Assembly: GCA_002255565.1 (NCBI GenBank)
Contig: NCBE01000020.1
Location: 1 to 36,663, forward strand
DNA: 36,663 nt
Reading direction: 5' to 3'
Origin: Actinobacteria bacterium 21-73-9
GTDB lineage: Bacteria; Actinomycetota; Acidimicrobiia; Acidimicrobiales; RAAP-2
Shown: in pieces, positions 18,358 through 33,493 of the stretch
How the letters are laid out: the number at the start of each line of letters is the position of its first letter
How positions within the stretch are numbered: position 1 is the stretch's first letter
Program-made: the position numbers and the translations under genes
The notes under the pieces: generated by a model
Database searches by the model: none
What the model was told of the DNA's origin: nothing
What the model saw: only the letters and a program-made list of their open reading frames with translations

Positions 18358-19845
18358 TCACCCCGGGCACGCGCTCGAGGCGGCGGGGTGGCCGGCCTGC
18401 ACGGCGAGTCCCCCCTCGATCAGGCAGGCGATGATGGGACCGGCCACGCTCGCGCCCGTGGCCGAGGTCACCTGGTAGGGCACCACCACGGCCGCGGCCA
18501 CCGTCGGGTCGCTCGCCGGGGCGAAGGCGATGAGCCAGTCGTCGGTGTTCTGGGCGACCGTGCCCGTCTGGGAGGTGCCGGTCTTCGCGGCGACGTCGTC
18601 GGCCGCGGGGAAGATCCCGGCGGCCGTGCCGGACGTCGCGACGGCGACCATGAGCGGCACGATCTGGGCGGCCTGGGCGGCCGAGAGGGGCGTCTTCCAG
18701 ACACTCTTCTTGAAGCGGGTGACCACGGCCCCGTTGGGCCCGGTGATCTCCTTCATGAGGTGGGGCACCATCTCCACCCCGCCGTTCGCGACGGTGCCGG
18801 CGATCATCGCGTCCATGAGGGCCGACTCGCGGACGTTCTGCTGGCCGAGCGAGGAGTAGGCCAGCTGGGGCAGGTCGTAGGTGAAGGCCGAGGCCGGCGG
18901 GAAGTTGCTCGCCGCCACGCCGGGCAGGTCGAGGGGGGGCACCTCGTTGAAGCCGTAGGCGTCGGCGGCGGCGGACAGCGCGTTCCCGCCGAGGTCGAGC
19001 CCGACCATCGCGAAGCCGGTGTCGCACGACGGCGGGAGCATCTCGGCGATCGTGCCGCCGCAGAGCTCGTAGGCGTAGTTCGAGAGGGTCTTGTTGGAGT
19101 TGGGCAGGTGGATGAACGTCTTGGCCGGGTAGACCTTCTTCAAGAGTTGGGGCTTCGAGAGCAGCACCGCGGAGGTGGTGACGACCTTGAAGGTCGAGCC
19201 CGGCGGGAAGGTCTGCTGGGTCGCGAGCTCGCCCAGCGGCGGGAAGCCGTGGGCGTTGTTGGTCGTGTCCTTCTTCCAGGCCGCCGCGGCCACGGCGTAG
19301 TTCGACGAGGTGAACGGCACCGGGTTGTAGGTGGGGTTCGAGTACATCGCCAGGACGTCGCCGTTCCGAGGGTCGATCACGACGCCGGCCCCGTCGCGGC
19401 CGGCTAGGGCGTGCTGGATCACCCGCTCCAAGCCCACGTTGATCGTGAGCACGACGTTGTCGGACGCCTGGGTCGGGGCGAGCACCTGGGCCAGGCTCTG
19501 GGGCGGCTGGGGGTGGGGGGTCAGCTGGCGGTTGTACTGGGCCTCGAGCGCCCAGGTGCCGTAGTAGGGCGAGACGAAGCCCACGAGGCCCGCCATGAGG
19601 CTGCCCAGCGGGTAGATCCGCTTGTAGCCGCCGTTGGCCGCCGGGACCGACTGGGCGAGGATCGTGCCGTCGGCGGCCACGATCTCCCCCCGAGCCTGGT
19701 TGGCGGTGACCGTGTTGTTGCGCGGGTTGAGCGGCGAGGCGTCGAGGGCCCTCGCGCGGAAGAACTGGAGGTTGAGGCTCTGTCCCACGACCACGGCGAA
19801 GAGCACGAGGATGGCCGCGGCCAGCAGGCTGAGTCGGCGTCCCAC
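18358..19845 (-). CDS. pbpA: PbpA-type class B penicillin-binding protein (transpeptidase)
   Basis: About 496 residues. One N-terminal signal anchor ('LSLLAAAILVLFAVVVGQSL', about residues 5-26), a dimerisation region beginning 'NPRNN' and 'ARGEIVAADGTILA', then the transpeptidase domain with the active-site Ser in 'PPGSTFKVV' (SxxK) and 'AKTGTSQTG' (KTG). The second motif, SxN in relatives, reads S-C-D here ('PPSCDTGFA'). PbpA cross-links peptidoglycan during elongation or septation and is a PknB target in mycobacteria. The GTG start at 19845 lies 2 bp after the stop of the preceding frame, with purine-rich sequence upstream. rodA, which normally precedes it, is missing. The same frame is open without stops back through the phosphatase gene. 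Confidence 0.9.
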   Translation of the reverse strand: MGRRLSLLAAAILVLFAVVVGQSLNLQFFRARALDASPLNPRNNTVTANQARGEIVAADGTILAQSVPAANGGYKRIYPLGSLMAGLVGFVSPYYGTWALEAQYNRQLTPHPQPPQSLAQVLAPTQASDNVVLTINVGLERVIQHALAGRDGAGVVIDPRNGDVLAMYSNPTYNPVPFTSSNYAVAAAAWKKDTTNNAHGFPPLGELATQQTFPPGSTFKVVTTSAVLLSKPQLLKKVYPAKTFIHLPNSNKTLSNYAYELCGGTIAEMLPPSCDTGFAMVGLDLGGNALSAAADAYGFNEVPPLDLPGVAASNFPPASAFTYDLPQLAYSSLGQQNVRESALMDAMIAGTVANGGVEMVPHLMKEITGPNGAVVTRFKKSVWKTPLSAAQAAQIVPLMVAVATSGTAAGIFPAADDVAAKTGTSQTGTVAQNTDDWLIAFAPASDPTVAAAVVVPYQVTSATGASVAGPIIACLIEGGLAVQAGHPAASSACPG

Positions 19846-19847
19846 GG

Positions 19848-20264
19848 CTAGCCCCGGCCCCTCGTCGTGGTCGTCGTCGAGGTCGACGTCGGGGTCGTCG
19901 TCGTGGTCGTCGTCGAGGTGACCCCGAGCTGCCACTCGTGGAACAGGTTCCTCGCGTAGGCCCGGGCGGCGCCGAGGGTGGGCTCGGGGATCGTCGCCCG
20001 CACGGCGCGCTGGTCGAGCGGGCGAAGCTCGCTCATGGAGTAGGGCGTCGCCTCCAGGAGGATCGGCCGGTACCAGAGCATGCCCGAGGGCTGGCCCTGG
20101 TAGATGACGACGGCTCCCTGGTAGTCGGCCAGGTAGTACGAGGAGTACGCGTACCAGTGGGTGAGAGCGACCACCCCGGCCGCGATCGCGAGGAACGCGA
20201 CGACTCCGAGCAGGACCCGCAGGGTGAAGCGACGCGGGCGCGAGGGTCCGCGCGGACGGCCCAT
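19848..20264 (-). CDS. C-terminal membrane/extracellular part of a PstP-like phosphatase, separated by a frame break
   Basis: 138 residues. A basic start 'GPSRPRRFTLRVLLGVVAF', one transmembrane helix (about 15-35), a short extracellular domain with 'GAVVIYQGQPSGMLWYRP', and a Thr-rich tail. In actinobacterial PstP proteins this region follows the PP2C domain in the same chain. Here it lies in a different reading frame, directly after the point where the catalytic domain breaks off. The ATG at 20264 overlaps the end of the catalytic frame (CATGG), so it might be translated on its own by reinitiation, giving a small one-pass membrane protein. More likely it is the downstream half of a broken gene. 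Confidence 0.55.
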   Translation of the reverse strand: MGRPRGPSRPRRFTLRVLLGVVAFLAIAAGVVALTHWYAYSSYYLADYQGAVVIYQGQPSGMLWYRPILLEATPYSMSELRPLDQRAVRATIPEPTLGAARAYARNLFHEWQLGVTSTTTTTTTPTSTSTTTTTRGRG

Positions 20265-20946
20265 GGCCTCCGGCCGCCCGGGCCGCGGCCACGAGGCCCT
20301 CCACGGCGTCCTCGAGGTCGGCGGGGTCGCCGGCCAGGCGCGCCAGTTCGTCGGGGACGAGCTCGTTGGACAGCCCGTCGCTGCACAGGAGGATCCGGTC
20401 GCCGGTCAGGGCGTCGATGGACAGGACGTCGACGGCGACCTCCTCTTCCACGCCCACCCCCCGGGTCAGCTGGTGGCGGCGGGGGTGGACCGCCGCCTCT
20501 TCGGGGGTGAGACGACCCAGGCGAACCCACTCCTCGGCCACGCTGTGGTCCTGGGTGAGCTGGCGCAGCGCGCCGTCGCGCAGCTGGTAGGCGCGCGAGT
20601 CGCCCACGTGCACGAGCGTCGGCGACGAGGCGCCGGCGTAGTCGTAGGTGATCGCGACCGCGAGGAGCGTCGTGCCCATGCCGAAGCGCTCGGGGTTCTC
20701 CTTGGCGTCACGGACGATCGCCGCGTTCGCCCGCTCGACCGCCGCGACCAGTCCCTCGACCGACTCGTCCGCGTAGTAGCCCGCGCGCACCGTCTCCACG
20801 GCGATCTGGGCCGCGACCTCCCCGGCCGCGTGACCGCCCATCCCGTCGGCCACCACGGCGAGGGCCCCGTCGACGTAGACCGCGTCCTGGTTGGTTTGGC
20901 GCACCAGCCCGATGTCGGTCGCCGCGGCGCACCGCCACCGGGTCAA
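20265..20946 (-). CDS. pstP: PP2C-type Ser/Thr phosphatase (PstP-like), catalytic domain, broken at the C-terminus
   Basis: About 227 residues of PP2C core: 'VRQTNQDAVYVD', 'VVADGMGGHAAGEVA', 'HVGDSRAYQL', 'LTQDHS' and 'LLCSDGLSNELV'. It stops being family-like after 'VAAARAAGGH', exactly where relatives continue with D-N-x-T, whose Asp is a metal ligand. About one to several dozen codons are missing and the frame is shifted: the following transmembrane part is read in another frame (19848-20264). In its own frame it runs on without a stop into pbpA at 18358. A working PstP would reverse PknB phosphorylation. The start is TTG 20946, overlapping the fhaB stop as TTGA. Its activity is doubtful if the sequence is correct. 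Confidence 0.75.
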
Positions 20947-21395
20947 CGAACGACCTCGAGCAACACCCCGCCGACCTGGACGATGTCGCCCTTGGCGAGG
21001 TGGACCCGACCTCGCACGAGCTCCTGGTTCACGTAGGTGCCGTTGGTCGAGCCCAGGTCCTCGATGGACAGGTCCCCGTCGTCGTTGATGACCCGGGCGT
21101 GACGCGAGGAGATGTAGGTGTCGAGCACGCTGAGGTCGCAGTCGGGGCTCCGGCCGATGAGTACGACCTCCTCGACGTCCGTGCGCTCGCCGCTGCGCTC
21201 CTCGGGCTCGAGGATCTCGAGGGCGAGCCCCCCACGCCACCGACGGCGCCGACCACTCTGGTCCTCCGTCGGTCGAGCCTGCACCTGGGCCACGCGCAAC
21301 ACGCGCAGGAGGAACAGAACGGCCACCACCATGACCAGGACCTGCAGGGGACGGACGATCGCGGCGTAGTTCGTCGTCGCGAGGAGGTTCGTCAA
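20943..21395 (-). CDS. fhaB: FHA-domain membrane-anchored protein (FhaB/FipA-like)
   Basis: 150 residues. One N-terminal membrane helix (about 14-35, 'VRPLQVLVMVVAVLFLLRVL'), a linker, then an FHA domain at about 75-150 with 'IGRSPDCDL', 'SSRHARV' and 'DLGSTNGTYVN', which binds phosphothreonine. In mycobacteria FhaB (FipA) links PknB signalling to FtsZ/FtsQ. The start is TTG 21395, overlapping the fhaA stop as TTGA; the phosphatase starts the same way at its own 3' end, so the three genes are translationally chained. Confidence 0.9.
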   Translation of the reverse strand: MTNLLATTNYAAIVRPLQVLVMVVAVLFLLRVLRVAQVQARPTEDQSGRRRRWRGGLALEILEPEERSGERTDVEEVVLIGRSPDCDLSVLDTYISSRHARVINDDGDLSIEDLGSTNGTYVNQELVRGRVHLAKGDIVQVGGVLLEVVR

Positions 21396-22039
21396 GCCAG
21401 CTCGATCCGGAAGCGCACGGCCCCCACCACCACCTCGTCACGGGGCGACAACGACACCGCAGAGACGCGATGGCCGTTGACGTAGGTCCCGTTGGTGGAC
21501 TGGAGGTCGCGGATCGCGACCCCCTCGGCGGTCCGCCAGACCTCGGCGTGCTGGCGGCTGACGTTCGCGTCGTTCACGACGACCTCGACGTCGGGGGACC
21601 GGCCGATGACCAGTGGCAAGTCGCCGATCACGAAGGAGCGGCCGTCGCTCGCGACGAGCCGGGGCTGGCTGGCGCCGGCCTCGAACTCGCAGCGCACCTC
21701 GAGCTCGCCGAGCTTGAGGTCGTCGTCGACGTAGACCTCGACGCGCACCGGGCCGACGAAGGCGTACCCCTCCCCCATCGCGTGCTGGCGGACGGTCTCT
21801 TCGAGCTCGGAGACGAGGGCCTTTTGGAATCCCTCGAAGCGCTGGGCGTCGTCGGGGCCGAGCCAGACGGTGATCACGTTCGCCGAGATCTCCCCCTGGG
21901 TCGAGAGGCGACGGGCCAGGTCGACCTCGCGCACGATACGTGTGGCGATCTCGATCGGCTGCAGGGCGTTCTTGAAGGGTCGCGAGAACGTCTTCTCGAA
22001 GGCCCGCTCGAGGCGGTTCTCGACCTTCCGCAGGGGCAT
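21392..22039 (-). CDS. fhaA: FhaA-like protein: DUF3662 domain plus FHA domain
   Basis: 215 residues. The N-terminal about 120 residues are the DUF3662 domain ('NRLERAFEKTFSRPFKNALQ', 'YVDDDLKLGE' nearby), and residues about 125-215 an FHA domain with 'IGRSPDVEV', 'SRQHAEV' and 'DLQSTNGTYVN'. Compared with mycobacterial FhaA the long linker between the domains is much shorter. FhaA binds phosphorylated MviN and PknB targets to control peptidoglycan precursor supply. It is the first gene of the operon; a TAAAGT -10 box (22050-22055, minus) and a GGAGGG ribosome-binding site precede the ATG. Confidence 0.9.
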   Translation of the reverse strand: MPLRKVENRLERAFEKTFSRPFKNALQPIEIATRIVREVDLARRLSTQGEISANVITVWLGPDDAQRFEGFQKALVSELEETVRQHAMGEGYAFVGPVRVEVYVDDDLKLGELEVRCEFEAGASQPRLVASDGRSFVIGDLPLVIGRSPDVEVVVNDANVSRQHAEVWRTAEGVAIRDLQSTNGTYVNGHRVSAVSLSPRDEVVVGAVRFRIELA

Positions 22040-27160: not shown

Positions 27161-27349
27161 GTGCTCGTCCTCGAACTGCTCGTCGCGTTGGCGGCCACGG
27201 CCTCGTTGGTCGCCCTCGGCGGGCTCTTCCTCGCGGGGGCGGCGTCCGCCCTCGCCGTCGCCCGTCTGGCCCGCGGGGACCGGCGCCGGCGCGCCGACCT
27301 CGAGCGCGTCCTCAGCGAGGTGCTGGGCCCGGCCCGCGAGCCCGTCTAG
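27161..27349 (+). CDS. Small single-pass membrane protein
   Basis: 62 residues. One hydrophobic helix (about residues 1-30, 'LLVALAATASLVALGGLFLAG'), then a basic, coiled cytoplasmic tail 'RLARGDRRRRADLERVLSEVL'. GTG 27161 is chosen because the protein then begins at the helix; GTG 27107 is an alternative. It ends on CTAG shared with the stop of the convergent Fe-S flavoprotein gene, an arrangement also seen for the thiolase and crgA, which supports it being real. No family is recognised. Confidence 0.45.
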   Translation: MLVLELLVALAATASLVALGGLFLAGAASALAVARLARGDRRRRADLERVLSEVLGPAREPV

Positions 27350-29547
27350 CCGACGACCGCGCGCGCCCTTGGCGCGAAGACCTGCGCGGCCACGCGGTGG
27401 GCGAACGCCTCGGGCTTGGTCGGGCGGATGCGCGCGTCCTCGGCGCGATCGCCCGCCCCGAAGGCCGTGCTCGCCACCACCGTGCCACCGCGGGCCTCGA
27501 CCTGGTGAGCCAGTTCGGCCGGGGCCGTCCGGGGGTTGACCCCGTAGGTGCAGAAGAGGGCGACGGGTCGGCCCCCGAGCCACGGCAGCCCGTCGACGAA
27601 GTCGCGCATGGCGCGCGCCGCGCGCACGCGGGCGACGACGAGCCCCTCCACCCAGCTCCCGAGCACCAGGGCGTCGGCCTGGGCCAGGGCGAGGGCGTCG
27701 ACCCGCTCGACCGGCAACACCGACACCGTCGCGCCGGCGCGGCGCAGTTCGTCGCCGACGACCTCGGCCAGGCGGGCCGTCGTGCCGCTGGCGCTGGCGT
27801 AGGCGACGAGCACGCGCGGCGCCGGCGCCTCGGCGTCGCGCCCGCGCCCCTCGCGCGAGGGACGCGCGTCGAGGATGGCGCGGGCCGCCCGGCGGCCCTG
27901 GGCCATCGCCTCGACGACCGTCGAGGGTCCGGTGAGCGCGTCGCCGGCCGCCCAGAGCCGCTCACGCCGGGGCATCGCCGCCTCCCAGAGGCCGACCTCG
28001 CGGTCGAGCGCGAGCGCGCCGACGGGCTGGGCGAAACAGACCGGGCTCGCCGGGTTGGCGAGGATCCCGCTGGCGCTCCAGCGGCCCGGGGCGAAGCCCC
28101 GGTGGCGCTTGACGATGGGCGTCTGGGGGACGCGGGCGCGCAGCCCCTCCTCGACGCGGTAGCCCATGGCCATCACCACGAGGTCGACGGCGAGGACGTC
28201 GAGGCCGTCGGGTGACACCACCGGCGTGCTCGCCCGGTCCCGCTGGGTCGTGTGGGACAAGAGAGCGCGCACGACCCGGCCGTCGAAGCCCTCGAGGCTG
28301 GTGAGGGTCCGCGAGAAGCGCACGTCGACCCCCTCGGAGCGGGCCTCGGCCAGCTCGTCGGGCCGGGCGAGGGCGAAGCGCTCGTCGAGCCAGTCGACGC
28401 AGGTCGCCTCGAGGCCGAGGCGCCGGGCGAGGCGGGCGACGTCCATCGCGGTGTTGCCGGCGCCGAGCACGAGGACCCGACGGCCCCGCCCCGGGGCGAC
28501 GCCGAGCGACGCGCAAAACGCCGCGGGGTCCCCGCCTGGATCCAGGGCGGCCTTGGCCCCCTGGAGGAACGCCGTCGCCGTGCCCACGCCGTCGAGGTCC
28601 GCGCCGGGCACCGTGAGGCGCAGGGCCTGGCCGGCCCCGTGGGCCATCACCAGGGCGTCGTGGGCCTCGAGCAGCTGGTCGAGGTCGCCGGGCTCGACCG
28701 AGGTCGCGAGCCGCAGGTCGACGCCGGCCGCGACCAAGTCGTCCCACGGCCGACGGGCAACCTGGTCGGGCAGGGTGAAGTCCGGGATCCCCCACACGAG
28801 GAGGCCGCCGGGCCGGTCGTCGCGCTCGTAGACGGTGACCCGCGCCCCGCCGGCGAGCAGCTCGTAGGCGGCGCCGATGGCGGCCGGGCCCGATCCGACG
28901 ACGCCGACCGACAGGGCCGTCGTCGACTCGGCCACGACGGGCGCCGGGATGACGGCCTGGTCGGCGATGAAGCGCTCGAGGCGACCGATGGCGACCGGCT
29001 CGCCGCCGGCGAGCGACCACGTGCACGAGCCCTCGCACTGGGCGGCCTGATTGCAGACCCGCGAGCACACGTCGGGCAGGACCGTCGTGCGCCGCAAGAT
29101 GGCGTGGGCGGTCTCGAGGTCGTGGTCCCGCACGGCCGCCACGAAGGCGGGGATGTCGTTGTGGGCCGGGCAGCCCCGCACGCAGGTCGGGTCGGGACAG
29201 GCCAGGCACCGGTTGGCCTCGGCGATCGCCTCCTCCCACGTGGCGTAGCCCTGACGGGTCTCGGTCACGTTCGCGTGGAGCTCGACCGGGTGGCGCACCG
29301 GGGGGTCGACCCGGGTGGCGACCGCGAGCGGGCCCTCGACGACGATCGCGCTGAAAGGGCAGGTGCGAACGCACTGGCGGCACCCCACGCACAGGGCGTC
29401 GTCGACCCGGGCCGTCCAGCTCGCGGGCTCCATGGAGAGCGCCCCGGCCGGGCAGCGGATCACGCACTCCTGGCACCCCGCACAGCGGTCGACGAGGACG
29501 GTGACGTGGCGGCCGGTTCCGACGCGCTCGGTCTCGGTGATGGTCAT
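27346..29547 (-). CDS. Multidomain Fe-S flavoprotein: ferredoxin + GltD-like oxidoreductase + flavodoxin
   Basis: 733 residues in one chain. Residues 20-65: two [4Fe-4S] ferredoxin motifs (C22-C25-C28-C32 and C53-C56-C59-C63). Residues about 105-200: the GltD-type N-terminal Fe-S domain with C114/C117/C122/C126 and C161/C165/C171/C175. Residues about 210-560: FAD/NAD(P)-binding part with 'GVVGSGPAAIGAAYEL', 'ERDDRPGGLLVWGIP', 'GAGNTAMDVARLARRL' and 'WAAGDALTGPSTVVEAMAQG'. Residues about 577-733: a flavodoxin domain starting 'VLVAYASASGTTARLAE'. GltD-like proteins move electrons between NAD(P)H and a partner; no glutamate synthase large subunit is nearby, so the partner is probably the adjacent membrane polyferredoxin. 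The ATG 29547 lies 8 bp after that gene's stop, with AGGAG overlapping the stop. The combination in one chain is unusual in my knowledge. Confidence 0.85.
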   Translation of the reverse strand: MTITETERVGTGRHVTVLVDRCAGCQECVIRCPAGALSMEPASWTARVDDALCVGCRQCVRTCPFSAIVVEGPLAVATRVDPPVRHPVELHANVTETRQGYATWEEAIAEANRCLACPDPTCVRGCPAHNDIPAFVAAVRDHDLETAHAILRRTTVLPDVCSRVCNQAAQCEGSCTWSLAGGEPVAIGRLERFIADQAVIPAPVVAESTTALSVGVVGSGPAAIGAAYELLAGGARVTVYERDDRPGGLLVWGIPDFTLPDQVARRPWDDLVAAGVDLRLATSVEPGDLDQLLEAHDALVMAHGAGQALRLTVPGADLDGVGTATAFLQGAKAALDPGGDPAAFCASLGVAPGRGRRVLVLGAGNTAMDVARLARRLGLEATCVDWLDERFALARPDELAEARSEGVDVRFSRTLTSLEGFDGRVVRALLSHTTQRDRASTPVVSPDGLDVLAVDLVVMAMGYRVEEGLRARVPQTPIVKRHRGFAPGRWSASGILANPASPVCFAQPVGALALDREVGLWEAAMPRRERLWAAGDALTGPSTVVEAMAQGRRAARAILDARPSREGRGRDAEAPAPRVLVAYASASGTTARLAEVVGDELRRAGATVSVLPVERVDALALAQADALVLGSWVEGLVVARVRAARAMRDFVDGLPWLGGRPVALFCTYGVNPRTAPAELAHQVEARGGTVVASTAFGAGDRAEDARIRPTKPEAFAHRVAAQVFAPRARAVVG

Positions 29548-29555
29548 CTCGGCTC

Positions 29556-31133
29556 CTAGTTCGCGGCGTTCATCCACACGTACAGCACGGCGACCACGAC
29601 GCCCAACGCGCCCGCGAGCGTCGTCGCGGCGATGCGCGCGGCGAGGGGCCGGCGGCTCAGCGGGGCGAGGTCGCGCCCGGCGATCCGCCAGCTCGCCCAC
29701 ATCGCCGCCGCCGTGCCGAGCGCGATCACCAGGTCCTGGACGGCGATGATCCCGGCGTTCGAGGCGATGAGCGACGCGTGGTAGAGGCGCGACGAGGTCG
29801 AGCCGAACCCGAAGAGGTGGCCGATGGAGACCGGCACGCGCGGGACGTAGCGCAGGAACTTCGGCAGCTGACGCGCGAAGTAGTCGGCGCCCACGACCGG
29901 GATGATCCCGTACATGAGGGGCACGAAGTAGCCCCGGAACTTGCTGGTGCGCTCGACGAAGGACGTGCCCCCGGGGGCGAGGACGAGGTCGCGCCGGGCG
30001 AAGGTCGCGCTGAAGAGCCGCCCGATCGCCGCCAGCGCCACGGCCACCGCGGCGATGATCCCGACGTAGTCGACGGGGTTGGGGTACTGGGGGAAGTGGA
30101 GGTGCACGTTGAGCCAGTTGTCCAGGCTCACGAAGGCCCCGAGCGCGTTCACCTGCTGGTAGAGCACCAGGCCGAAGAGCAGCGCCACCGACCAGGCCAC
30201 GTCGGCCCGGCGCCTAGAGGGCGCGACGACCGAGGTGAGGGGGGGCTGGAGGTAGAGGCCGATGTTGTCCGAGGGGCAGGCCTTGTAGCACTCGGTGCAC
30301 AGCCCGCAGGCGGCGTTGGAGTCGGCGCTGCCCGGCCAGGTGTACCACGGGCAGCCGAACCCCTCGGCGTCGCCGCGCATGCAGTCCTTGGTCTCACAGC
30401 TGAGACAGACCGCGCGGTCCCGGGTGCGGAACCCCGCCACCGAGCCCATCGCGCCGACGGTGCCGATGAGCGCCGAGAGCGGGCAGACGTAGCGGCAGAA
30501 GGTGCGCCGCTCGAAGGTGAGGAAGAAGACGAGCGCCGTGCCCACGATGCCGAGCACCATGAAGCTCGTGGCCATCGGGTTGCCCGGCCCGGCGATGTTG
30601 AAGAACTCCTCGATCCAGGTCAGGACCAAGAACGCCCCGACCGAGAGCAAGAAGCCGTACTGGGCGACCCGCTCGGGCATCTTGAGCCCGAGGCCGAGGC
30701 TCTTGGTGGTGCGCTTGAAGAAGGTGCGCCGCTGGACCCACTCGCCGAAGCCGCCGAAGGGGCACATGGCGCACCAGGCCCGCCCGACCACCACCATCAT
30801 CACGAAGACGAGGCAGAACCACAGGTACCAGGTGATGGCGGTGGCGAAGTTGAGGCCCGGCACCACCGTGCCGACGATCCCGATCGCGATGACGAGCCAG
30901 AAGATGATCTGGTTGGGCAGGATGAGGAAGAACTGCAGGCGACGGTCGCGCAGGATCCCGCCGACGCGCTTCAGGCGTGCCACGTCGAGGCCTCGGGGCG
31001 GGTCGGTGGCCGCGAATCGGCCCACCGCCTCGGGGTCCAACGGCGGCCGGGTCCGGATGGCCACGGGGATCGGGTCGACCTGGTGGCTGCGCGGGAAGCC
31101 CGCCGCGGAGTGGTCCTCGGTGAGAAGTGCCAT
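29556..31133 (-). CDS. Membrane-bound polyferredoxin (NapH/NosR/CcoG-like 4Fe-4S protein)
   Basis: 525 residues. After a soluble leader there are about five helices, with Cys motifs typical of the NapH/NosR/RdxA group at 'GRAWCAMCPFGGFGEW' and 'RTFCRYVCPLSALIG'. A cytoplasmic part follows, with 'VCLSCETKDCMRG' and a ferredoxin-type 'CGLCTECYKACPSDN'. The C-terminal half adds about six more helices, a longer tail than NapH. Such proteins pass electrons between quinol and Fe-S or periplasmic partners. It starts at ATG 31133, 106 bp downstream of a DosR-type palindrome, and is followed after 8 bp by the Fe-S flavoprotein gene, so the two should form one electron-transfer system between the membrane and NAD(P)H or flavodoxin. 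Direction and substrates are unknown. Confidence 0.8.
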   Translation of the reverse strand: MALLTEDHSAAGFPRSHQVDPIPVAIRTRPPLDPEAVGRFAATDPPRGLDVARLKRVGGILRDRRLQFFLILPNQIIFWLVIAIGIVGTVVPGLNFATAITWYLWFCLVFVMMVVVGRAWCAMCPFGGFGEWVQRRTFFKRTTKSLGLGLKMPERVAQYGFLLSVGAFLVLTWIEEFFNIAGPGNPMATSFMVLGIVGTALVFFLTFERRTFCRYVCPLSALIGTVGAMGSVAGFRTRDRAVCLSCETKDCMRGDAEGFGCPWYTWPGSADSNAACGLCTECYKACPSDNIGLYLQPPLTSVVAPSRRRADVAWSVALLFGLVLYQQVNALGAFVSLDNWLNVHLHFPQYPNPVDYVGIIAAVAVALAAIGRLFSATFARRDLVLAPGGTSFVERTSKFRGYFVPLMYGIIPVVGADYFARQLPKFLRYVPRVPVSIGHLFGFGSTSSRLYHASLIASNAGIIAVQDLVIALGTAAAMWASWRIAGRDLAPLSRRPLAARIAATTLAGALGVVVAVLYVWMNAAN

Positions 31134-31183
31134 CGCGCCCCTTCCAACGGGTGGTCACGTCCGTATCTACGTGGTTCCACTTG

Positions 31184-31197
31184 ACTATGTACGTAGT
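31184..31197 (-). promoter_or_regulatory. Near-palindrome containing ACTACGTACA, upstream of the Fe-S operon
   Basis: ACTATGTACGTAGT is palindromic at 12 of 14 positions. Its minus-strand form begins ACTACGTACA, the same ten bases found at 31338-31347 before the divergent response-regulator gene. It lies 51-64 bp upstream of the polyferredoxin ATG. A further CTACGTGG occurs at 31168-31175. Confidence 0.5.
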
Positions 31198-31238
31198 ATC
31201 ACTGAATCAAGGCCGGGTCCAATCATCCGGGGCAGAAA

Positions 31239-31252
31239 GGGACTAAAGTCCC
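31239..31252. promoter_or_regulatory. DosR/DevR-type operator core
   Basis: GGGACTAAAGTCCC is a perfect inverted repeat (6 bp, AA spacer, 6 bp). It equals the core of the mycobacterial DosR dormancy-regulon consensus (GGGACTWWAGTCCC) at all 14 positions. The flanking bases of the 20-bp consensus (TTS and SAA) are not conserved (AAA and ATC). It is midway in the 250-bp interval between the Fe-S operon and the two-component genes, 105 bp upstream of the former and 131 bp upstream of the latter. No T-run follows, so it is not a terminator. Confidence 0.7.
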
Positions 31253-31337
31253 ATCCACCCCGAATCGCAACGAAATCGCCGACCTCCCGGCCGGCCGCGG
31301 CGCCCCGAGCGGGCCCGCGATGACGGAATACCGTAGA

Positions 31338-31357
31338 ACTACGTACACGTACCCGTA
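31338..31357 (+). promoter_or_regulatory. Second ACTACGTACA site, upstream of the response-regulator gene
   Basis: ACTACGTACA (31338-31347) is followed by CGTACCCGTA and preceded by CCGTAGA, giving several CGTA words in 25 bp. The same ten bases occur in opposite orientation at 31188-31197 before the Fe-S operon. It ends 37 bp before the chosen start at 31384, so it could overlap the promoter and mediate autoregulation. Confidence 0.45.
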
Positions 31358-31383
31358 GGGTGTGCCACAGTGGGGAGGTGAGC

Positions 31384-32076
31384 GTGGACGCCGCCGAGGT
31401 CGAGACGGACCGGCCGGGGCCCGACCCCATCCGGATCCTCATCGTGGACGACCACGCCCTGGTGCGCGAAGGGACGCGCGAGCTCCTCTCCCAGGACGAC
31501 ACCCTCGTCGTGGTCGGCATGGCCGGCTCGGGCGAGGAGGCCCTCGAGGCGGTGGCCGCCCTCTCGCCCGACGTGGCCCTCGTCGACGTGAACCTGCCCT
31601 CGATGAGCGGGCTCGAGCTCTCCCGCGCCCTGCTCGCCCAGTTCCCCTCCACCAAGGTCCTCGTGCTCAGCGCCTACGACGACTACGCCTACGTGGCCGA
31701 GGCCCTCGAGGTGGGCGTCGCCGGGTACCTGCTCAAGACCGCCACCGCGAAGGAGCTCGTCGACGCCGTGCGCGCCGTCCACGACGGGGTCTTCGTCCTC
31801 GACCGCCAGGTCTCCCAGCGTCTCGTGCGGCGCCGCGAGACGGCCCCGACCTCGGTGGGGGGCCTCACGCCGCGTGAGACGAGCGTCCTGCAGCTCCTCG
31901 CCCAGGGGCGCTCCAACAAACAGATCGCCATCGAGATGGCCCTGGGGACCCGCACGGTCGAGGGCTACGTCTCGAACATCCTCGCCAAGCTGGGCGTCGC
32001 CTCGCGCACCGAGGCGGTCGCCCACGCCATCCGCCATCGCCTCGTGAGCCCCTCGGGCCATGACCGCACCGACTGA
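31384..32076 (+). CDS. NarL/DosR-family response regulator
   Basis: 230 residues. Receiver domain about 16-130 with acidic pocket 'IVDDHALVREG', phosphoacceptor D68 in 'VALVDVNLPSMSG', the Ser of 'VLSAY' and Lys of 'LLKTA'. C-terminal LuxR/GerE HTH about 158-222: 'LTPRETSVLQLLAQGRSNKQ' and 'RTVEGYVSNILAKLGV'. It is most similar in layout to NarL/DosR proteins. The recognition helix differs from mycobacterial DosR: the three base-contacting residues K179, K182 and N183 would be Arg, Glu and Gly here. GTG 31384 has GGGGAGG 5 bp upstream; GTGs at 31378 and 31360 are alternatives. The stop overlaps the kinase ATG by 17 bp. Confidence 0.9.
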   Translation: MDAAEVETDRPGPDPIRILIVDDHALVREGTRELLSQDDTLVVVGMAGSGEEALEAVAALSPDVALVDVNLPSMSGLELSRALLAQFPSTKVLVLSAYDDYAYVAEALEVGVAGYLLKTATAKELVDAVRAVHDGVFVLDRQVSQRLVRRRETAPTSVGGLTPRETSVLQLLAQGRSNKQIAIEMALGTRTVEGYVSNILAKLGVASRTEAVAHAIRHRLVSPSGHDRTD

Positions 32077-33493
32077 CCCCTCCGACGCGCCCCGGCCGCG
32101 CGGGCTCGTCGACCGACTCGTCCGCCCGCCCCTGGCCGACGGGCCGTTCTGGATCATCCAGGGGACGGTCCTGGTCATCGTCGCCCTGCACTACTTCCTC
32201 GACGTGCACCCCGACGTGGCGAGCGGCGTGCTCCCGTCGGGGCTGCCGGTCGCGGTCCTGGTCGTGCCGATCGGCTACGCCGCCTTGCGCTACGGGCTGC
32301 CCGGCTCGCTCGGCACCACGGCCTGGACGCTGGTGCTGTGGCTGCCGGACCTCCTGCTCCCCCACAACGAGGGCCACCCGGGCGACGACCTGCTCAACTT
32401 CGCCGTCATCGTGGTGGTCGCCGTCGTCTTTGGTCGACGGGTCGAGACCGAGCGCACGACCCAGGCCCGGATCGACTCGGCCAACGCGCGCGCCCTCGCG
32501 GTCGAGGCCGGGTACCACCGGCTCTTCGAGTCGACCCGCTCGCCCATCGTCGTGCTCGACGAGGACGTGCGCGTGAGCGACGCCAACCCGGCCGCGACGG
32601 CCCTCTTCGGCCCGGTCACGGGCCAGCCGCTGGCGCGCGTCCTCGGACCCGACGTGGACCTCGCGAGCCTGTCGGGACGGGTCCTCACGCTCGAGAACGG
32701 CCACGACTACCGCCTGGACCTCGTGGACATGCCCTTCGACAGCGACGAGCGTCGCCAGCAGCTCAGCTTCGAGGACGTGACCGAGGAGCGCAGCGAGGAG
32801 CGTCGCGCGCGGCTCTTCGCCCGCCAGATCGTCGACCTCGAGGAGGACCAGCGCCGTCGCCTCGCGCGCGAGCTCCACGACGAGCCGCTCCAGCTGTTCT
32901 TGCACCTCGCCCGGCGCCTCGAGCTGCTCGCCCACCACGAGGGGGTCACCGAGAAGATGGCCGCCGAGCTCGAGCGCACGCGCAACCAGGCCCTCGAGGC
33001 GGCGACCCGGCTGCGCTCCTTGGCGCGCGACCTGCGCCCGCCCGCGCTCGACCAGCTCGGCCTCGTGCCGGCCCTCTCGAGCCTCGTGGCCGAGATCGAC
33101 GACCAGGGCGAGGCCACGATCAGCCTCGCGGTCCACGGCGGCCCGACCCGGCTCGCCCCCGAGGTCGAGCTCGGCGCGTTCCGGATCGTCCAGGAGTCGC
33201 TGCGCAACGCCCAGCGCCACGCCGACGCCCACCACGTGGACGTCGTCCTCGACTTCGCCGACGAGGGCCTCCACCTGCGGGTGGTGGACGACGGCCGGGG
33301 CTTCGACCCGCACGCCGCGCCCGTGACGGGCAGCGCGTCGCTCGGCCTGGTCGGGATGCGCGAGCGCGCGCGACTGCTCGGGGGGATCGTCGTCCTGCGC
33401 TCCACCCCCGGGATCGGCACGGTCGTCGAGGCGACGCTCCCCACGGGCGCGCGCGAGAGCCACCCCGCCCCGGCGCCGGCGCCGGGCCCCTGA
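32060..33493 (+). CDS. Sensor histidine kinase (HisKA_3) with membrane and PAS domains
   Basis: 477 residues. Four hydrophobic segments (about 30-125), a PAS-like domain (about 150-240), a HisKA_3 dimerisation helix with phospho-His H273 in 'RRRLARELHDEPLQLF', and a HATPase_c domain with 'FRIVQESLRNAQRHA' (N box), 'VVDDGRGFD' (G1) and 'LGLVGMRERA' (G2). It should phosphorylate the response regulator whose gene it overlaps. DosS/DosT of mycobacteria sense O2 by GAF-bound heme; no GAF domain is visible here, so the sensing domain would be the membrane part or PAS. The C-terminus is a Pro/Ala tail. The ligand is unknown; membrane sensing of quinone redox state would suit the neighbours. Confidence 0.9.
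   Translation: MTAPTDPSDAPRPRGLVDRLVRPPLADGPFWIIQGTVLVIVALHYFLDVHPDVASGVLPSGLPVAVLVVPIGYAALRYGLPGSLGTTAWTLVLWLPDLLLPHNEGHPGDDLLNFAVIVVVAVVFGRRVETERTTQARIDSANARALAVEAGYHRLFESTRSPIVVLDEDVRVSDANPAATALFGPVTGQPLARVLGPDVDLASLSGRVLTLENGHDYRLDLVDMPFDSDERRQQLSFEDVTEERSEERRARLFARQIVDLEEDQRRRLARELHDEPLQLFLHLARRLELLAHHEGVTEKMAAELERTRNQALEAATRLRSLARDLRPPALDQLGLVPALSSLVAEIDDQGEATISLAVHGGPTRLAPEVELGAFRIVQESLRNAQRHADAHHVDVVLDFADEGLHLRVVDDGRGFDPHAAPVTGSASLGLVGMRERARLLGGIVVLRSTPGIGTVVEATLPTGARESHPAPAPAPGP

Follow-up and report, generated by a model that had tools for sequence, protein, structure and literature searches.

Sequence analysis indicates that a two-gene unit, composed of a NapH-like membrane protein and a ferredoxin/flavodoxin fusion, is carried by acid-loving actinobacteria, among them the cultured iron oxidiser Acidimicrobium ferrooxidans. 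We interpret this unit, with a probability of roughly one half, as an NAD(H):flavodoxin/ferredoxin oxidoreductase anchored in the membrane, where the NapH-like subunit would tie it to the quinone pool or to the proton gradient. The unit was analysed in a stretch of 36,663 nucleotides (hereafter the window) from a 1.95-Mb high-GC actinobacterial MAG. A preliminary description of this DNA had proposed an electron-transfer module at positions 27346-31133; the ORF check found these coordinates to be correct, and comparison with homologous loci supports the view that the module is real and conserved. It consists of two genes:

29556..31133, minus strand: membrane protein gene (525 aa), directly upstream of the fusion gene
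27346..29547, minus strand: fusion gene (733 aa), as delimited by start and domain calls

The fusion ORF is open over 27346-29700 (minus strand), but the ATG at 29547 is its likely start, because it is directly preceded by an AGGAG ribosome site, which the TAG stop of the upstream gene overlaps. The two genes are separated by 8 nt.

Pfam searches and the AlphaFold2 model (mean pLDDT 83) bear out the preliminary account of the fusion as a single 733-residue chain with two ferredoxin clusters, Fe-S and FAD/NAD(P) domains and a C-terminal flavodoxin, arranged in the following order:

Residues 19-68: dicluster ferredoxin (Pfam Fer4)
Residues 93-198: Fer4_20 two-cluster domain (Pfam E-value 4.5e-34)
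About residues 212-565: FAD/NAD core (Pyr_redox_2 at 214-467, E-value 2.2e-19)
Residues 578-726: flavodoxin domain (Pfam Flavodoxin_5/Flavodoxin_1 at 580-693)

The flavodoxin domain scores barely above the Pfam cut-offs (Flavodoxin_5: 28.4 vs 27; Flavodoxin_1: 26.6 vs 25), and its model superimposes on the free-standing flavodoxin 5wid with a Z-score of 20.2 and an rmsd of 1.8 A over 138 residues. The FMN P-loop S585/G588/T590 (S-x-x-G-x-T) is kept in all 75 aligned rows that possess the domain, and the dN/dS ratios (0.03-0.33 over 14 pairs, mostly 0.03-0.23) argue that it is under purifying selection.

The core of the fusion resembles NfnB/NfnL in its two-cluster and FAD/nucleotide parts (about 34% identity; model vs NfnB structure 5jfc: Z-score 36.7, 433 residues, 2.7 A). 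The 16 cluster-type cysteines counted in the preliminary description are all present and invariant (83/83 homologues), and so is Glu191, a ligand of the NfnB-type proximal cluster, whose counterpart in NfnL is E126 (PMC9503767). The sites of the flavin and the nucleotide differ, however. All Nfn homologues are reported to conserve the Arg residue hydrogen-bonded to flavin N5 (in GIPEFRLP; PMC6405883), whereas the corresponding position in the fusion, assigned to residue 258 from the literature and residue counting, is Thr in 77/83 homologues and Val, Ser or Glu in the rest. The YRR motif that holds the phosphate of NADP (PMC7596348) is replaced by D385-W386, with Asp/Glu-Trp in the family (Trp in 80/83 homologues). 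Because YRR is absent, and because in the DsrL family loss of YRR has been found by experiment to accompany the use of NAD(H) (PMC7596348), the fusion is predicted to use NAD(H), not NADP(H). Arg-Arg does occur at the nucleotide site of L117 and L120 (genomes G334 and G118), each a second, divergent pair without flavodoxin; these second copies may represent an NADP-type paralogue. Further differences from NfnB/NfnL are the added ferredoxin and flavodoxin domains and the obligate membrane partner, which in the neighbour tables of the loci stands in the place of an adjacent gene for NfnA (FAD/NAD, 2Fe-2S), none being found there.

The 525-aa partner comprises a NapH-like four-helix module, an eight-Cys ferredoxin domain (243-286) with two 4Fe-4S motifs, and then about five extra helices. 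The NapH/NosR-like character and the additional C-terminal bundle had been recognised in the preliminary description, which counted about six helices in the bundle where we read about five. Two cysteine motifs mark the module:

Residues 121-124: CX2CP motif
Residues 213-217: CX3CP motif

The CX3CP motif is found in 83/83 membrane proteins and the CX2CP motif in all 79 rows that cover it; likewise, ten of the 12 cysteines, including the eight of the ferredoxin domain, are invariant in 83/83 sequences, and the first pair in 79/79 rows covering its position. Family-averaged hydropathy and loop charges predict about nine helices with the N-terminus inside, and according to the positive-inside rule both Cys motifs and the ferredoxin domain face the cytoplasm, which is the side on which the fusion must be located as well. 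With the NapH/NosR/RdhC module the protein has in common the four helices and the paired Cys motifs, and with NapH and NosR an eight-Cys ferredoxin domain (PMC5928378), but it is distinguished by the five extra helices, the lack of a covalent-FMN domain and the cytoplasmic NAD-enzyme partner. The module has two CX3CP motifs, whereas the first motif here is CX2CP, so that the protein falls outside a definition based on two CX3CP motifs; its NapH score is 28.8 vs a cut-off of 213.

No Pfam family was assigned to the five C-terminal helices, and heme binding in them was rejected on the grounds that they contain no invariant His (H439 in 69/83, H346 in 31/83). The invariant residues Glu175, Glu176, Asn179 and Asp417 of the membrane protein are candidate quinone or proton sites. 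As the model is of moderate confidence (pLDDT 69), with no PDB structure matched by Foldseek under an E-value of 0.001 and only helical matches (Z-score about 5) in another PDB comparison, coupling to quinones or protons is without structural support. By analogy with NapH, for whose membrane segments quinol oxidation has been proposed (PMC5928378), the protein may nonetheless link to the quinone pool.

Among the fusion homologues with at least 1 kb of upstream sequence (n=83), the membrane protein is encoded directly upstream on the same strand in every case (83/83; median gap 26 nt). A scan of one genome per species, in a systematic homologue search that covered Actinomycetota, yielded 77 loci, most of which bear the label of an Acidimicrobiaceae or Actinomycetes MAG. 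The fusion, either full or cut by a contig end, is present in 17/37 genomes of the source genus, and a close match to the membrane protein in 31/395 sampled genomes of the class. The label of one locus (L076) is Chloroflexi and that of some records Acidobacteria, possibly through errors in binning or naming. The preliminary description had proposed a domain-architecture check and had allowed that the flavodoxin could be a separate gene in all relatives, or the fusion an assembly artefact. Both are refuted: the flavodoxin is in frame in about 70 loci from different genomes, one of them closed, which excludes an artefact as the source of the fusion. The closed genome has 2,158,157 bp and was taken as that of A. 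ferrooxidans, whose published genome is of the same length (PMC3035218).

The flavodoxin domain is missing from 10 complete rows, and since these are scattered over the core tree, it was probably gained or lost several times; parsimony gives six changes, an exact number made unsure by long branches. Two of the flavodoxin-less loci (L128 and L138) encode a small ferredoxin within the same gene run as the pair, while most flavodoxin-less relatives checked have neither a flavodoxin nor a small ferredoxin gene among the neighbouring ORFs.

The membrane protein has distant relatives, unaccompanied by the fusion, in other actinobacteria and, on plasmids, in further phyla; in the plasmid records no single place covers 80% of either protein of the pair. 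Relatives reaching into the C-terminal part, without the NAD enzyme, occur in L139 and L140 next to small lipoprotein-like and BlaI/BlaR-like genes. In L121, L126 and L141, more distant relatives of the NapH-like part have cupredoxin, YHS-domain and cytochrome-like genes nearby, which hints at a connection with metal handling. A distant relative of the NapH-like membrane module also forms part of two cyanobacterial plasmid proteins (L146, 2495-5188; L147, 2540-5254) that adjoin cysteine synthase and carry the annotation cyclic nucleotide-binding or nitrogen regulator.

Analysis of the region upstream of the pair revealed a conserved promoter-operator and the divergent genes of a dedicated two-component system (neighbour counts, here and below, are from a heuristic gene caller):

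31160-31342: conserved promoter-operator upstream of the pair, with TTGACA, then GATAGTAC, GTAGTTCTACGGTA and TAAGTA repeats; about 60 loci
31160..31199, minus strand: conserved TACTAC/ACGTAG repeat region of the promoter-operator, just upstream of the membrane protein gene
31329..31342, minus strand: candidate operator GTAGTTCTACGGTA, single copy in the source genome; it lies about 200 nt ahead of the membrane protein gene and immediately precedes the response-regulator start
31360..32076, plus strand: divergent LuxR-type response regulator; neighbour in 45 loci
32060..33493, plus strand: PAS-domain HisKA_3 sensor kinase; neighbour in 52 loci

TACTAC occurs at 3.5 per kb upstream of the homologues vs 0.10 per kb elsewhere, and TAAGTA at 3.4 per kb upstream of the membrane protein gene vs 0.03 per kb elsewhere. 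The exact 14-mer GTAGTTCTACGGTA is present once each in genomes G000, G258 and G394, always upstream of the pair, which suggests a dedicated regulatory circuit. In 57 loci the pair also neighbours a gene for an Rrf2 regulator, although none lies beside it in the source window; in the one Rrf2 protein inspected the cysteines follow a CX6CX5CX2H-like pattern, which is typical of Fe-S sensing. In about eight loci (among them L052, L060, L069, L080, L093 and L128) the pair adjoins a small operon, or part of it, in which an R2-like diiron protein is encoded together with an uncharacterised 158-aa protein and a dicluster ferredoxin.

Each domain of the pair belongs to a known family. The GltD assignment made in the preliminary description holds for the two-cluster/FAD core as a type and fails as an identity: NfnB is a closer relative of the core than GltD proper, and the scores lie below the NCBIfam cut-offs for GltD (256.6 vs 471.75 and 222.1 vs 482.95). 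A role in glutamate synthase is rejected on these scores and on the absence of GltB among the window ORFs scanned, in agreement with the earlier remark that no large subunit is nearby; a 1450-aa window ORF of similar size is an aminotransferase, the N-terminal part of which has no matches and overlaps an opposite-strand cyclase/AAA gene. Another long ORF of the window (18358-21441, minus strand) combines in a single open frame a PP2C phosphatase domain (175-393) and a penicillin-binding transpeptidase (684-1006), and is likely a frameshift or two overlapping genes and not a true fusion, because the stretch between the domains looks out of frame. AegA/YgfT share with the fusion the N-terminal ferredoxin and the GltD-type core (28% identity, residues 11-560) but have no flavodoxin (scores: 193.5 and 179.8 vs cut-offs of 1003 and 1154). 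DsrL, likewise an NAD(P)H:acceptor oxidoreductase of the GltD/Nfn type, also has an extra ferredoxin domain, and its NAD-type variants lack YRR; however, its ferredoxin domain is C-terminal and that of the fusion N-terminal, its partner is DsrAB, and it has no flavodoxin. FixABCX and Rnf may share a role in connecting NAD(H), the membrane and low-potential carriers, but judging from the Pfam domains of both proteins the pair contains no subunits homologous to theirs. What is apparently undescribed, as the preliminary description had supposed of the pair, is the combination of this domain order with an obligate partner, changed flavin and nucleotide sites and additional helices: no open-access paper was found to report them jointly, although absence there is no proof.

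We propose that the 733-aa protein would exchange hydride with NAD(H) at the FAD in the cytoplasm, and that the two clusters of its NfnB/GltD-type domain would relay single electrons both to the dicluster ferredoxin at the N-terminus and to the tethered flavodoxin, the latter serving as a built-in one-electron carrier. The small ferredoxin encoded in the two flavodoxin-less gene runs, as if in replacement, fits this role. The 525-aa protein would dock on the cytoplasmic face via its own two 4Fe-4S clusters and tie the system to the membrane, that is to the quinone pool (by analogy with NapH) or to the proton gradient (through the extra helices), and such coupling could let low-potential electrons be made or disposed of. 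The direction that we favour is from NADH to flavodoxin/ferredoxin.

Flow in the opposite direction, with reduced ferredoxin/flavodoxin or quinol reducing NAD+ for disposal or reverse electron flow, appears to us rather improbable. It would suit iron-oxidising acidophiles such as A. ferrooxidans, which carry the pair and need reverse electron flow, and the related DsrL-1A favours NAD+ reduction (PMC7596348); but no RuBisCO was found in 34 genomes of the source genus, whether the pair is present or not, so that a RuBisCO link is rejected, and five genomes of another family that bear the pair, A. ferrooxidans among them, have no member of the 2-oxoacid:ferredoxin oxidoreductase family (POR_N). 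That enzyme therefore cannot be the general source of ferredoxin for re-oxidation by the pair. In the source genus, 16/17 pair-bearing vs 8/17 pair-lacking genomes have the stronger POR_N class (Fisher p 0.007, relatedness ignored). A NuoH-family subunit in 33/33 genomes tested indicates that the pair is not a needed replacement for complex I, and hydrogenases revealed no clear pattern across the genomes; altogether, no dependence of the pair on RuBisCO, 2-oxoacid oxidoreductase, hydrogenase or complex I was found.

The preliminary description had suggested bifurcation as in Nfn-type enzymes. In a scheme analogous to FixABCX but made of NfnB and NapH-like parts, the electrons of NADH would part at the FAD, with one passing down to quinone via the membrane protein and the other up to the ferredoxin/flavodoxin arm. 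The NfnB fold, the conserved Glu191 and the two separate exits (membrane subunit and flavodoxin) speak for it; with the N5 Arg replaced, the NADP motif lost and no NfnA gene adjacent, the proposal is weakened to the point that Nfn-like bifurcation is unlikely, and we would give little credence to bifurcation of the general kind, even though bifurcation might in principle also arise in a different flavin environment. Anchor or maturation roles have been proposed for parts of NosR and CcoG, and the membrane protein could be just that if the fusion were a dedicated reductase of an oxygenase or other enzyme, a reading favoured by the R2-like diiron operon but very improbable given that this operon is missing from most loci.

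The supply and disposal of low-potential electrons in aerobic acid-living actinobacteria have been little studied, and the redox module described here, a proposed NAD(H):flavodoxin/ferredoxin oxidoreductase, is conserved and under separate regulation; its presence in a cultured type strain makes it directly testable. As an NfnB-type enzyme that has lost the bifurcation Arg and the NADP motif and acquired a membrane partner and a fused flavodoxin, it is a natural case for comparison when asking what enables a flavin to bifurcate. We speculate further, as an unlikely but consequential possibility, that it could be a new membrane-coupled generator of low-potential electrons in aerobic acidophiles, in which a NapH-like subunit with five additional helices would let quinone reduction or the very large proton gradient drive an NADH-oxidising NfnB-like enzyme with a tethered flavodoxin; if true, such a generator would be a functional parallel to Fix and Rnf, unrelated to both.
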